Positions 4,409 to 54,514 of a DNA stretch of 64,000 bases are shown piece by piece. The notes beneath the pieces were generated by a model. It was not told the DNA's origin. It made no database searches and was given only the letters and a program-made list of their open reading frames with translations. Position numbers and translations under genes: made by a program. Origin of the DNA: Halobellus sp. MBLA0158 (GTDB lineage Archaea > Halobacteriota > Halobacteria > Halobacteriales > Haloferacaceae). The stretch lies in the NCBI RefSeq assembly GCF_041477585.1, contig NZ_JBGNYA010000001.1, positions 310,001 through 374,000 on the forward strand. Reading direction: 5' to 3'. Position 1 is the first letter of the stretch. Each line of letters starts with the position of its first letter.

Positions 4409-5550
4409 GCGGCGGCTTCGTCTTCTCCGAGAAGCCGATCCAGATCGAGTCCGGCGAGGGCGCGTACCTCTACAGCCCCGACGGCACCGAGTACCTCGAC
4501 TTCGGCGCCTCCTACGCCGTCGCCGCGCTCGGCCACGCCCACCCCGCGGTGACAGAGGCCGTCCAGGCGCAGGCCGAGAAACTGACCTACGTGCAGGCCT
4601 CCTACCCGGTCGAAGCGCGGACCGACCTCTACGAGAAACTGGCCGCGCTGGGGCCGGGCGACGCCGACAACGTCTGGCTCTGTAACTCCGGGACCGAGGC
4701 CAACGAGGCGGCGATGAAGTTCGCCCGCTCGGCGACGGGGCGCTCGAAGATCGTCGCGACGAAGCGCGGCTTCCACGGCCGGACGCTGGGGTCGCTCGCT
4801 TTGACCTGGAAGGACAAGTACAAGGCGCCGTTCGAGCCGCTTGCCGGCGGCGTGGAGTTCGTCCCCTACGGCGACAGCGAGGCCCTCGCCGAGGCGGTCG
4901 ACGAGGAGACGGCGGCGCTCTTCTTGGAGCCGATCCAGGGCGAGGGCGGGATCCATCCCGCCTCCGCGGAATATCTCGAACGCGCCCGCGAGGTGACCGA
5001 GGACGCGGGCGCGGCGCTCGTCTTCGACGAGATCCAGACGGGCGTCGGCCGGACCGGCGACCTCTGGGCCTGCGAGGGCGTCGGCGTCGGCGTCGAGCCC
5101 GACATCCTCACCTCCGCGAAGGGGATCGCCAACGGGCTCCCGCTCGGCGCGACCCTCGTGCAGGACTGGATCGCCGAGGAGCCCGGCGACCACGGCTCGA
5201 CGTTCTCCGGCGGGCCGGTCGTCGCCGCCGCGGCCAACGCGACCCTGGAGACGATCGTCGACGAAGACGTGCCCGGCAACGCCGCGCGCGTCGGCGAGTA
5301 CCTCCGGAGCGAGATCGAGGCTGCGGTCGACGAACACGACCTCCCCGTCAGGGAGGTCCGCGGCGTCGGCCTGATGATCGGGATCCAGGTGAAGCGGGGG
5401 GCAAACCGCGTGCTGAAGAACCTCGCGCTCTCCGAGCAGGTGCTCGCGCTGCCGGCGGGCCGGACGGTCGTCCGGCTGCTCCCGCCGCTCACGATCGACG
5501 AGAGCCACGCCGACCAGTTCGTCGACTCGCTCGTGGAGGTGCTCGGATGA
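4405..5550 (+). CDS. argD: Acetylornithine/LysW-ornithine aminotransferase (ArgD/LysJ)
   Basis: Class-III PLP aminotransferase of 381 residues that converts the carrier-bound semialdehyde to carrier-bound ornithine with glutamate as donor. The PLP-binding Lys is K239 in LTSAKGIANGLPLG, preceded by VFDEIQTGVGRTG. The substrate/PLP loop NSGTEANEAAMKFAR is near residue 94. A Shine-Dalgarno sequence GGAGGTG at 4393-4399, 5 nt before ATG 4405, fixes the start, which overlaps the argB stop. Confidence 0.95.
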   Translation: MSGGFVFSEKPIQIESGEGAYLYSPDGTEYLDFGASYAVAALGHAHPAVTEAVQAQAEKLTYVQASYPVEARTDLYEKLAALGPGDADNVWLCNSGTEANEAAMKFARSATGRSKIVATKRGFHGRTLGSLALTWKDKYKAPFEPLAGGVEFVPYGDSEALAEAVDEETAALFLEPIQGEGGIHPASAEYLERAREVTEDAGAALVFDEIQTGVGRTGDLWACEGVGVGVEPDILTSAKGIANGLPLGATLVQDWIAEEPGDHGSTFSGGPVVAAAANATLETIVDEDVPGNAARVGEYLRSEIEAAVDEHDLPVREVRGVGLMIGIQVKRGANRVLKNLALSEQVLALPAGRTVVRLLPPLTIDESHADQFVDSLVEVLG

Positions 5551-6770
5551 GCCTCGAACTCGATCCCGACGACCTCGACGAGATGGAGTCGAAGGCCGAA
5601 CCGGCCGCGGCCGAATCCGATCCGACGGACGCCGACCCGACCGAGCTCGTCGAGTTCGACCCCGACAGCGTCGACGTCGCGGGCGACGGCGGCACGGCGT
5701 TCACCGCGACCGACCACGACGTCTTCGACGTCGAGCCGGGGCTCACCGAGGGGCTGAACGAGGCCCAGACCCTGCTCGCGGATCTGGTCTCGATCCCCTC
5801 GCCGTCCGGCCAGGAGGCCGCCGCGGCCGAGCGGCTGAAGGCGTTCTTCGAGGCCCACGACCGCGAGGTGTGGATCGACGAGGTCGGCAACGTGCGCGCG
5901 CCCGCCGACGACTCGGTCCTCCTGACCTCGCACATCGACACCGTGCCGGGCGACGTGCCCGTGCGGATCGAAAACGGCGTGCTCTGGGGTCGCGGGACCG
6001 TCGACGCGACCGGGCCGCTGGCGGCGATGGCCGTCGCGGCCGTCGAGACAGGCGTCTCCTTCGTCGGCGTCGTCCAGGAGGAGACCAGTTCCACCGGCGC
6101 GTGGCACCTCGTCGAGGACCGCGAGGCGCCCGAGGCGGTGATCAACGGCGAGCCCTCGGGCTGGGACGGCATCACCCTCGGGTACCGCGGCTTCCTCGCG
6201 GGCACGTACGTCTCGACGAGCGAACTCGGCCACTCCTCGCGCCCCGAGGACAACGCCATCCAGTCGGCGGTGAACTGGTGGTCCAGCGTCGCGGACTTCT
6301 TCGACGAGGACGAGTCCGACGGCGTCTTCGACACGGTGACGACAAAGCCCGTGAGCTTCGACGGCGGCCCGACGGAGGACGGCCTCGCGGTCGAGGCGAC
6401 CGTCGACGTCCAGTTCCGCGTGCCCCCGAAGTTCACCATCGACGACATCCGGGAGGTCGCGGAGGGCGAACTCACCAGGGGAAGCGTCCACTGGGAAAAG
6501 CCCATCCCGCCCGTGATGACGAGCCCGCGCACCGAGGTCGGCCGCGCGTTCCGCGTCGCGATCCGCGGGGCCGGCGGCGAGCCGAGACTGCTCAGGAAGA
6601 CCGGCACCAGCGACATGAACATCTACGCCGGCGCGTGGGACTGCCCGATGGCGACCTACGGCCCGGGTGACTCCGATCTGGATCACGCCCCGAACGAACA
6701 CCTCGACCTCGCGGAGTACGACAGCTCGATCGACGTCCTCGTGGACGTCTGCGAGCGCCTGCAGGAGTGA
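5547..6770 (+). CDS. lysK: LysW-ornithine hydrolase (LysK) with acidic N-terminal extension
   Basis: M20-family metallopeptidase that releases ornithine from the LysW carrier. The catalytic core has LVSIPSPSGQE, TSHIDTVPG (metal His and Asp), WGRGTVDATGPLAAM, GVVQEETSSTGAWH and a late KTGTSDMN segment. The protein has 407 residues. About 70 of these form an Asp/Glu-rich tail before the core, which starts near LLADLVSIPS. A strong GGAGGTG at 5535-5541, 5 nt before ATG 5547, supports the long form, and no plausible start lies between residue 12 and the core. It overlaps argD by 4 nt and abuts argF. Confidence 0.92.
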   Translation: MSLELDPDDLDEMESKAEPAAAESDPTDADPTELVEFDPDSVDVAGDGGTAFTATDHDVFDVEPGLTEGLNEAQTLLADLVSIPSPSGQEAAAAERLKAFFEAHDREVWIDEVGNVRAPADDSVLLTSHIDTVPGDVPVRIENGVLWGRGTVDATGPLAAMAVAAVETGVSFVGVVQEETSSTGAWHLVEDREAPEAVINGEPSGWDGITLGYRGFLAGTYVSTSELGHSSRPEDNAIQSAVNWWSSVADFFDEDESDGVFDTVTTKPVSFDGGPTEDGLAVEATVDVQFRVPPKFTIDDIREVAEGELTRGSVHWEKPIPPVMTSPRTEVGRAFRVAIRGAGGEPRLLRKTGTSDMNIYAGAWDCPMATYGPGDSDLDHAPNEHLDLAEYDSSIDVLVDVCERLQE

Positions 6771-51739: not shown

Positions 51740-52654
51740 ATGTTCGACGACGTCCTCTTCCCGACCGACGGGAGCGGCGGTGCCGCCAGAGTCCTCGATC
51801 ACGTCCTCGACCTGGCCGAGGCGCACGACGCCACGCTGCACATCCTCTCGGCCGCACAGACCGACAGCGACGCCCTCACCCGGGGGCGCGAGGACATCGC
51901 CGCGGAGATCGAATCGCGAGCGCGGGCGGCCGTGGACACGGCCGCCGACCGCGCCGCCGACCGCGGGGTCGAGACCGTCAGAGCCGTCGAGACCGCCGCG
52001 CCCGCCGACGCCATCGTCGCCTACGCCGCCTCGGGGGGCGACGACGGTGACGGCGGCGTCGACCTGATCGCGATGCCGACCCACGGCCGCACGGGTATCG
52101 AGCGACTCCTCCTGGGGAGCACGACCGAGCGCGTCGTCAGGCGCTCGCCCGCGCCGGTCCTCGCAGTCGGCCCCGACGAGGAGCGGGAGCTCGCGTACCC
52201 GTACGAGCGCGTGCTCGCGCCGACCGACGGGAGCGCCTGCGCGGACGTCGCCGTCGGCCTCGGCGCCGACCTCGCGGCCGCGACGGACGCCCGCCTCGAC
52301 GTCCTCTCGGTCGTCGACGTGGCGCACCTCGGCCTCGACGCCCGCGTCGACCTCCAGATCGACCAGCTGGAAGCGAACGCCGAGCAGTTCGTCGAGAGCG
52401 GCGTCGACCTCGCAAGCGACGCGGGCGTCGCCGAAGAGGCCATCACCAGCGAGGTCGTGACGGGCACCTCGGCGCACCGCGAGATCAACAAGTACGTCTC
52501 CGAACACGACGTGGATCTGATCGTGGTCGGCACTCACGGCCGCACCGGCGTCGATCGCTACCTCCTCGGGAGCGTGACCGAGAAGCTCCTCCGGACCGCG
52601 TCGGTGCCAGTGCTGACCGTCCGGCGGCCCGCGGACGAGACCGAAGGAAACTGA
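51740..52654 (+). CDS. Tandem universal stress protein (two Usp domains)
   Basis: Protein of 304 residues with two Usp domains of about 150 residues. Each starts with a VLFPTDGSGG or VLAPTDGSAC type strand and ends with an ATP-binding pattern (PTHGRTGIERLLLGSTTERVV and GTHGRTGVDRYLLGSVTEKLL). Both look nucleotide-competent. Such fused pairs act as pseudo-dimers. It is a single gene, convergent with the tetrad-helix membrane protein 8 nt away. Confidence 0.93.
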   Translation: MFDDVLFPTDGSGGAARVLDHVLDLAEAHDATLHILSAAQTDSDALTRGREDIAAEIESRARAAVDTAADRAADRGVETVRAVETAAPADAIVAYAASGGDDGDGGVDLIAMPTHGRTGIERLLLGSTTERVVRRSPAPVLAVGPDEERELAYPYERVLAPTDGSACADVAVGLGADLAAATDARLDVLSVVDVAHLGLDARVDLQIDQLEANAEQFVESGVDLASDAGVAEEAITSEVVTGTSAHREINKYVSEHDVDLIVVGTHGRTGVDRYLLGSVTEKLLRTASVPVLTVRRPADETEGN

Positions 52655-52662
52655 CGGACCGA

Positions 52663-53241
52663 TTAGGCGTCTTCGTCTCCGCTCGCCCCGTCTCGCTCTT
52701 CGATCTCGGCCTCGACGCGCTCTTCGACCCGGCGGTCGACGCGCTCCTGGACTTCCTCGTCGATCTGTTCCTGCACCTCTTCGTCCACGCGCTCTTGGAC
52801 TTCCTCGTCGATCTGTTCTTGGACCTGCTCGTCCACGCGCTCTTGGACCTCTTGGTCCAGCCGCTCGTCGACCCGCTCCTGAACTTCTTCGCCGACGGTC
52901 GCTTCGACCCGCTCTTCGACTTCCTCGCCGACCTGTTCGTCGACGGTCGCTTCCACCTGCTCTTCGACTTCCCTGCCGACCTGTTCTTCGACCTCGGCTT
53001 CGACCTGAGTCTCGGCCTCCCGGGAGACGGCCTCTTCGAGGATGCGCTCGTAGATCGACATCTTCTCCCAGATCCGGAGGAGGTACCCGACGACGAGGCC
53101 GCCCTCGAAGGCCGCCACGCGCGGATCGACGCGGAAGACGAGATAGGCGAACCCGGCGATGAAGAGCGCGCCGTAGAGCAGTTCGATGTGGAACTGCGTC
53201 TCCCGGCCGCGGAACCGTCCGGACAGCGTGCTCGGTGCCAT
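52663..53241 (-). CDS. Membrane-anchored protein with strictly 4-residue-periodic helix
   Basis: Protein of 192 residues. Residues 18-58 form two adjacent hydrophobic segments (ELLYGALFIAGFAYLVF and VAAFEGGLVVGYLLRIW). From V72 to I180 a hydrophobic residue (Val, Ile, Leu, one Ala) recurs at exactly every fourth position, 26 in a row without a slip from V80, in units such as EEVQERVD and EEVQEQID. The rest is Glu, Asp, Gln and Arg. The DNA is a degenerate 24-bp tandem repeat. No function is known. The stripe drifts around an alpha-helix, so it is not a normal heptad coiled coil. Confidence 0.75.
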   Translation of the reverse strand: MAPSTLSGRFRGRETQFHIELLYGALFIAGFAYLVFRVDPRVAAFEGGLVVGYLLRIWEKMSIYERILEEAVSREAETQVEAEVEEQVGREVEEQVEATVDEQVGEEVEERVEATVGEEVQERVDERLDQEVQERVDEQVQEQIDEEVQERVDEEVQEQIDEEVQERVDRRVEERVEAEIEERDGASGDEDA

Positions 53242-53314: not shown

Positions 53315-54367
53315 CTAGGTCAGGAGGTGGAGCCGCTCTGCGGCCTCGAACGCCGCGAAGGCGACCGCGCCGGCGACAGTCGGGGTCGCAATCCACGTGG
53401 AGACGATCCGCTTCGTGACGCGCGGATCGAACAGCTTCAGCCGGTCGGCCGCCTGCGTCTCGCGTTCGGCCGCGGTGAGGCCCTCGGGCCGCGCGATCGC
53501 TCGCAACGGGATCTGGCGGCTGGCGCGTCCCCACCCCAGGCCGATGATGCAAGCGGTGAGGACGACCGCCAGGCTCGCCGGGATCCCAGCCCAACTGAGC
53601 CCGGTGAGGATCGACGCGGCGATCGACTCCGCGATCAGCGAGGCCTCCAGCGAGAGGTCGGTGATGTCCTCGCCGACCGTCTCCATCGTCCGGTGACCGA
53701 GCGCGAACGCGCCGACGCCGATGGCGAGGCCCCCGACCGCGACGCCCGGGAGCATCCCGAGCTGGCCGGAGCCGACCAGCGGCGCGACCGCGTTGGCGAC
53801 GTTCGACGCGCCGGCGGAGAAGGCCATATAACAGCCGATGCCGACGACGACGAACTCGGCCAGTCGGCTGTTCCGCGACTCCAGGTCGAGCGCGTCCACC
53901 ACGGCGTCGTAGAGGTAGCGGCCGACGAACGCACAGAGCCAGAAGGCGAGGATCGTCGAGAGGAGCCACCAGAGGACGACGACGCCGACGGTCTCCCAGT
54001 TGAGCACGCCGAGCGCCGCGCCCATCCCGACGACCGCGGCCACGGCCGTCTGGCTGGTGCTCGTCGAGACCTTCAGCACGTTCCCCAGGAGGATCGCGAG
54101 CCCGATGAAAAGCAGGACGCCGATCGACGCGCCGAGGGTGAAGTACTCCGCGGGGACGAAGCCGCTACCCAGCGTCCGAACGACGTTGGTGCCGACGGTG
54201 AAGCCGCCGAGCAGCACGAACAGCGCCATCAGCGCAGAGGCCGTGCGCATCGAGACGACGCCGCTCCCGGTCGCCGGGCCGAACGCGACCCCCGTCGAGG
54301 AACCGCCGATGTTGATCCCGACGAACGCCGCCACGGCGACGCCGACGACGAACAGCGCCGAGGACAT
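53315..54367 (-). CDS. PiT-family inorganic phosphate permease
   Basis: Cation-coupled phosphate transporter of 350 residues, nine to ten helices. The two family repeats are recognisable: FVGINIGGSSTGVAFGPATG near the N-terminus and the classical GASNVANAVAPLVGSG in the second half. ATG 54367 is preferred over one nine codons upstream. It has no adjacent phoU/DUF47 partner, which PiT genes often have; the tetrad-helix protein gene follows 73 nt downstream on the same strand. Confidence 0.9.
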   Translation of the reverse strand: MSSALFVVGVAVAAFVGINIGGSSTGVAFGPATGSGVVSMRTASALMALFVLLGGFTVGTNVVRTLGSGFVPAEYFTLGASIGVLLFIGLAILLGNVLKVSTSTSQTAVAAVVGMGAALGVLNWETVGVVVLWWLLSTILAFWLCAFVGRYLYDAVVDALDLESRNSRLAEFVVVGIGCYMAFSAGASNVANAVAPLVGSGQLGMLPGVAVGGLAIGVGAFALGHRTMETVGEDITDLSLEASLIAESIAASILTGLSWAGIPASLAVVLTACIIGLGWGRASRQIPLRAIARPEGLTAAERETQAADRLKLFDPRVTKRIVSTWIATPTVAGAVAFAAFEAAERLHLLT

Positions 54368-54514
54368 CGTTCGGAGGTGAGATGGTCGGCTCAAAGAGTC
54401 TGTCCGTTCGCGTCGATTCGGCGGACGTCGCCCGAAAAAACGCGTCCTGTCGGACGGAGAAGTCAGGGGACCCGACTCGACGTCGGGCGACCGACTACGC
54501 CGCGGTCGCGGTTC

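Follow-up and report, generated by a model that had tools for sequence, protein, structure and literature searches.

A Haloarchaeal Family of Membrane Hairpins with Four-Residue Repeat Tails Is Linked to One Clade of PiT Permeases

Introduction

The main new finding on the tetrad-helix family of haloarchaea is its partner permease. The gene under study lies in a window of 64,000 nucleotides (the whole stretch of DNA that was analysed) from Halobellus sp. MBLA0158 and codes for a membrane hairpin followed by a long tail with a hydrophobic residue at every fourth position. The gene does not stand alone: haloarchaea have an unannotated family of such genes, in two subfamilies, whose members share a homologous membrane hairpin of two helices and have a tail that varies. 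The family is genetically linked to one clade of PiT permeases. A sequence-only reading of the same DNA had treated the permease as a mere neighbour; by the present analysis, it is apparently the family's functional partner. The preferred reading, to which a probability of roughly 0.6 is assigned, is that the hairpin protein is a membrane-embedded accessory subunit of the clade-2 haloarchaeal PiT permeases, which it would bind and regulate.

The linkage to one PiT clade points to an accessory system for phosphate transport in archaea that mostly lack PhoU_div, and it supplies a testable function for an unnamed family. The tail is of interest in its own right. Haloarchaea carry up to 66 selected repeats with a period of 4.0, which theory puts out of range for coiled coils; with a natural protein that maintains such repeats under selection, this limit therefore becomes testable.

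The Gene and Its Neighbourhood

The tetrad-helix gene, of subfamily A, occupies 52663..53241 on the minus strand as an open reading frame of 192 amino acids with an ATG start. Its N-terminal two-helix hairpin (residues 1-66; 53044..53241, minus strand) is supported by alignment, by comparison of the A and B profiles and by AlphaFold. The tetrad array covers residues 80-180 (52702..53004, minus strand) and is encoded by tandem DNA repeats detected with Tandem Repeats Finder at 52694..53007. Upstream and co-directional lies a PiT/PHO4-family permease gene (53315..54394, minus strand; PF01384, E 6.8e-45), placed in clade 2 by the PiT tree, for which an alternative ATG start near 54367 is plausible. 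The convergent neighbour on the other side is a tandem universal stress protein (Usp) gene (51740..52654, plus strand; PF00582, E 2.3e-55). The identities of both neighbours, a Usp and a phosphate permease, had been proposed from the sequence and were borne out by these domain matches. The proposal of a membrane anchor was likewise retained, and the anchor itself was corrected in the analysis to a two-helix hairpin.

No Pfam or NCBIfam model scored above its cut-off with the window protein, and PDB sequence searches with the whole protein (phmmer) and with the hairpin profile revealed no solved relative; the Pfam, NCBIfam and PDB sequence searches returned low-complexity matches only. The CdrL_M model (PF24252) reached 19.7 bits with the window protein, below its cut-off of 27, and scored 31.5 over a 30-residue stretch of the subfamily B member L070. 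Membership of CdrL_M was rejected, as the L070 match was judged compositional and the source genome's own CdrL-type protein looks unrelated. An Rfam search found no RNA element near the window gene. The open antisense frames that run through the repeat, in the window gene and in its homologues, were taken as artefacts of a GC-rich repeat.

Distribution and Conserved Hairpin of the Family

A search over 60 related haloarchaeal genomes found relatives in 31, and a profile of the N-terminal hairpin found homologues with this conserved N-terminus in 34 of the 60. When the draw was widened to 295 genomes of the phylum, 41 were matched, all within the same order. The source genome holds one member of each subfamily. 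The hairpin is the part conserved in both: in subfamily A, the window type, it reads FxGRxTQFHIELLYG...FEGGLVVGYLLRIWEKMSIYER and is followed by R/Q-rich tetrads, and in subfamily B it reads NPxRVDFIVDLxYG...AFGLGVLVSYVIHxxWKMxRFDPDWMT and is followed by T-rich tetrads. Comparison of the two hairpin profiles gave a probability of 93.7 (E 1.9e-7), which at the level of profiles identifies the two hairpins as homologous. Y23, G24, F45, G48, Y53 and M61 are invariant in the alignment.

No relative of the family was found in viral contigs, nor any relative of the one homologue that was searched for in phages. A literature search, with most subscription journals outside its reach, found neither the family nor long strict tetrads described before.

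Linkage to the Clade-2 PiT Permease

A clade-2 PiT gene was found within 1.5 kb of the hairpin gene at 53 of 79 loci. With a few PiT genes among about 3,300 genes, adjacency by chance is estimated at well under one locus. The arrangement of the pairs varies: the PiT gene is co-directional and downstream at 20 of the 53 loci, divergent at another 20, upstream at 11 and convergent at two. Some of the co-directional pairs with PiT downstream overlap by 3-9 bp, and the PiT-upstream arrangement seen in the window belongs mostly to subfamily A. The 26 loci that lack an adjacent PiT gene include some at contig ends; others lie beside Usp or TrkA/TrkH genes.

A tree of 54 PiT sequences, a non-random sample in that the paired PiTs were taken from the hairpin matches, separated into two deep clades, with all 34 paired PiTs in one clade and 16 of the 20 sampled unpaired PiTs in the other; none of 500 shuffles of the labels gave as good a separation. 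A hairpin partner was not found at any of the 16 sampled loci of the second clade. The association is not obligatory on the side of the permease. Four sampled clade-2 PiTs, one of them in the source genome, have no hairpin partner, and some genomes without the hairpin family still carry clade-2 PiTs.

The distances among hairpins and among their PiTs were correlated (Mantel r of 0.83 overall and 0.61 within subfamily B, reached in 0 of 2000 permutations), a correlation that includes shared species history. The two genes have also decayed together. In Halobacterium salinarum NRC-1, R1, 91-R6 and BOL4-2, the PiT gene has lost its intact reading frame, and a stop codon interrupts the hairpin gene within the second membrane helix; strain GN101 has the same hairpin stop and a shortened PiT. 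Decay of both genes is what would be expected of one unit. The linkage to PiT does not depend on a long array, since it is also seen in subfamily B members with as few as 4-6 tetrads. Genetic linkage of this kind is no proof of binding.

Two side observations concern these pairs. On Halobacterium plasmids such as pNRC200 and pHS3 (L137-L141), the PiT and hairpin genes are broken and the tail amounts to about two tetrads. At L046, an A-type hairpin is paired with a PiT from the base of the B clade; such a mosaic could be the trace of an exchange of partners. The L046 array has a proline directly after valine at three 12-residue steps.

The clade-2 permeases have unusual signatures. The canonical second signature motif of PiT is GANDVANA. 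The clade-2 proteins (that of the window at 53315-54394, and L039-L078) have GASNVANA or GTSNIANA in its place, and NIGG replaces ND in the first motif. Since Asn replaces Asp in the second motif, the substrate of clade 2 is not certain, and the coupling ion or the substrate may, judging from these motifs, differ from that of canonical PiT. The second clade (L085-L099, L101 and L103, excluding L094, which falls in the other clade) reads GAGSSG[SA]TPFAPAVGANAIS or GA[NS]SNSPPFAPAIGANA[IV]S, and its signature motifs are altered even more than those of clade 2.

The Four-Residue Repeat Rule

The observation that drew attention to the gene, a hydrophobic residue at every fourth position, was confirmed: all 26 such positions from V80 to I180 are Val, Ile or Leu. 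Positions 72, 76, 80...180 read V A V V V V V V V V V V V V L V V V I V V V I V V V V I, and no V, I, L, M or F stands out of register between residues 72 and 180, where the only out-of-register hydrophobic residues are Ala 82, 98, 114 and 178. Residues 72-187 include 48 acidic and 12 basic residues. In 20,000 composition-preserving shuffles of the protein, the longest run was 9, under a null that takes no account of the underlying DNA repeat. When a random 8-mer of the same composition was copied in tandem, a run of at least 26 arose in 22% of trials, so that the run in one gene is weak evidence alone. Because the DNA of the window gene is a tandem repeat of 12, 24, 36 and 48 bp, little can be concluded from this gene by itself. 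The gene had been described as built of 24-bp repeats; this period is present, beneath stronger ones of 48 and 36 bp, and the true unit is the 12-bp tetrad.

The stronger evidence for the tetrad pattern is the comparison with relatives. Across 61 homologues with long arrays, 1971 of 2049 spacings within runs of 3/4 spacing (96%) are of four residues, so what had been noticed in one protein is the rule of a family. The mean spacing has a median of 3.97 over these members, against 4.00 in the window array; it exceeds 3.9 in 54 of the 61 and is purely 4 in 17. Pure tetrad runs extend to 46 in L070, 55 in L111 and 66 in L125, and array length ranges across the family from about 4 to 66 tetrads. 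In ten genes, the second codon base of the Val column has zero entropy and the third base varies by 0.4-1.35 bits; in the same genes, variation is also seen in the residues of the three remaining tetrad positions. The fixed second base beside a varying third base indicates purifying selection on the stripe, beyond mere copying.

Repeat number had been expected to vary, and it does so between close species. The hairpin coding DNA of Halobaculum magnesiiphilum and H. roseum is 99.5% identical, and their arrays differ by 44 residues, exactly 11 tetrads with the register kept, from which it follows that array length changes in units of 12 bp. Slips to 3-4 spacing, which had been named as grounds for abandoning the pattern, were found locally, and the family at large keeps to four. 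Many B members carry a conserved 3-4-3-4 heptad-like module near the C-terminus (VEEVNERVDRRP-like; EVDEVIDRVEEVNERVDRRP in L077), which in short B members follows only 4-6 tetrads. Heptads make up essentially the whole array of the remote homologue L051, and the arrays of L047 and L050 are mixed. The B-type array of L076 (G032:C1, about 5282-6679), some 60 tetrads long, passes into another frame of the same repeat near its end, consistent with a slippage frameshift or an assembly error.

Predicted Structure of the Tail

An AlphaFold2 monomer model of the window protein, built on a shallow alignment, places helices at residues 4-37 and 40-187 (pLDDT 74, pTM 0.28). The structure prediction that had been suggested thus returned a single continuous helix for residues 40-187. 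For the B paralogue of the source genome, a monomer model likewise built on a shallow alignment is a low-confidence helix, with a confidence below 50 in the tail. A fold search of the PDB with the AlphaFold model gave no match at E <= 0.001. Stretches free of Gly and Pro reach 64 residues in the window protein (family median 32), and a model of amphipathic segments with Gly/Pro hinges that reset the register was rejected, as it misfits Gly/Pro-free stretches of at least 64 residues.

By arithmetic, a period of 4.0 corresponds to a right-handed twist of about 9.2 degrees per residue, compared with 3.2 for a 15/4 coil; the stripe would make a full turn in about 36-39 residues, and a superhelix would have a pitch near 59 Å. 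The known right-handed coiled coils (hendecad 11/3, pentadecad 15/4, YadA 19/5) resemble the tail in that their stripe drifts right-handed relative to the helix. They differ in period, which is 3.67-3.8 in these proteins and 3.85-4.0 in the tetrad family, mostly above the limit of about 3.9. According to Hartmann et al. 2016 (PMC4786415), the periods of coiled coils span about 3.33-3.9; the expected ceiling is near 3.9, YadA at 3.8 marks the extreme known case, and 4.0 is named as inaccessible. The window array and 54 of the 61 members lie outside this range.

Stable single alpha-helices of the ER/K type (SAH) are mainly charged, have balanced salt bridges between i and i+4, and lack a hydrophobic seam. 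The tetrad array differs from them in having V/I/L at each fourth position and the strong acidic excess given above. The nearest structural precedent, by analogy, is the CID region of Sac3 in TREX-2, a continuous helix with an approximate four-residue repeat whose right-handed stripe, with a pitch of about 40 Å, is gripped by hairpins of Sus1 (PMC2726291). The tail shares with it the long continuous helix (here predicted, 40-187), the hydrophobic residue at every fourth position and the right-handed winding. The differences are that Sac3 CID has about 25 residues per site and an approximate repeat, while the tetrad family has up to 66 strict repeats and is membrane-anchored.

Alternative Explanations of the Tail

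It is conceivable that only the hairpin is functional and that the array is a by-product of slippage in a 12-bp repeat, a low-complexity extension that is tolerated. The whole-tetrad differences between close species, the wide range of array lengths, the PiT linkage of short members and the ease with which a copied random unit yields a long run would all fit. This explanation is nevertheless unlikely, since the second codon base of Val is fixed in ten genes alongside variation at synonymous sites and in the rest of the tetrad, since the rule is common to both subfamilies despite different fillers (R/Q in A, T in B), and since nearly all spacings are of four residues. An ordinary coiled coil, in which an oligomer starts from local heptads and the tetrad stretch settles into a mixed register, is suggested by the C-terminal module of many B members and by the heptad or mixed arrays of L051, L047 and L050. 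The mean spacing of the family and the inaccessibility of a 4.0 period, beyond even that of YadA, make this improbable.

An amphipathic helix on the membrane surface, similar to perilipin or synuclein, is more improbable still. The anchor does place the tail near lipid, and amphipathic character would be expected of short segments of 12-16 residues bounded by Gly; however, the acidic excess would face an acidic archaeal lipid, and the stripe would rotate fully within about 36-39 residues while uninterrupted stretches reach 64 residues in the window protein. A docking rod, in which one long helix is wrapped along its spiral stripe by partner chains as Sac3 is by Sus1, is a tentative possibility. 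The four-residue repeat and gripped right-handed stripe of Sac3 CID argue for it, as does the one continuous helix in the AlphaFold model. Against it, Usp makes only a weak candidate for a wrapping partner, and a freely varying length allows no fixed stoichiometry. A period-4.0 assembly, either a strongly right-handed superhelix with a pitch of about 59 Å or a self-wrapped rod, is put forward as a rather doubtful proposal; it would be stable in molar salt, exceed the limit accepted for coiled coils and couple PiT to a PhoU-independent regulator.

A Possible Accessory Role in Phosphate Transport

The preferred reading of the hairpin protein as an accessory subunit of the clade-2 permease suggests the following arrangement. 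The conserved hairpin would lie in the membrane, where it probably contacts the permease. Basic residues precede helix 1 and follow helix 2, so both ends are, by positive-inside reasoning, probably cytoplasmic, and the acidic tail would therefore adjoin the cytoplasmic face of the permease. The tail would extend as a long, acidic, essentially continuous alpha-helix into the cytoplasm, with the Val/Ile/Leu stripe spiralling around it in a right-handed sense once per 36-39 residues. This stripe may act as an interaction surface, by self-association or by the wrapping of partners, through which the permease might be clustered or regulated, and the number of tetrads would be free to change by whole 12-bp units.

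Bacterial PiT permeases work with PitR, which acts with its cognate PitA, and in some bacteria without PitR a small membrane protein of unknown function, SCO1846, is found beside pitA (PMC13170248). PhoU_div (PF01865), the domain family of PitR, was matched in only 9 of the 60 relatives and was absent from the Haloferax volcanii control. The hairpin family resembles PitR/PhoU_div in that its gene adjoins PiT with a clade-specific pairing. PitR/PhoU_div has a soluble PhoU fold, whereas the hairpin family is a membrane hairpin without sequence similarity to it, and no Pfam match to PF01865 was found in the hairpin protein. The likeness to SCO1846, by description, is that of a small membrane protein encoded next to PiT in the absence of PitR; SCO1846 was reported from bacteria and without mention of a tetrad tail, while the hairpin family is archaeal and has one.

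Usp and Other Neighbours

A Usp gene was found within 2.5 kb at 20 of 79 hairpin loci, compared with 3 of 20 unpaired PiT loci. This association is recurrent, weaker than that with PiT, and no more than suggestive. The Usp genes near the hairpin family often lie on the other strand, at a distance of 60-300 bp. At L045, where no PiT is present, an A-type hairpin gene is divergent from TrkA/TrkH-like potassium uptake genes.
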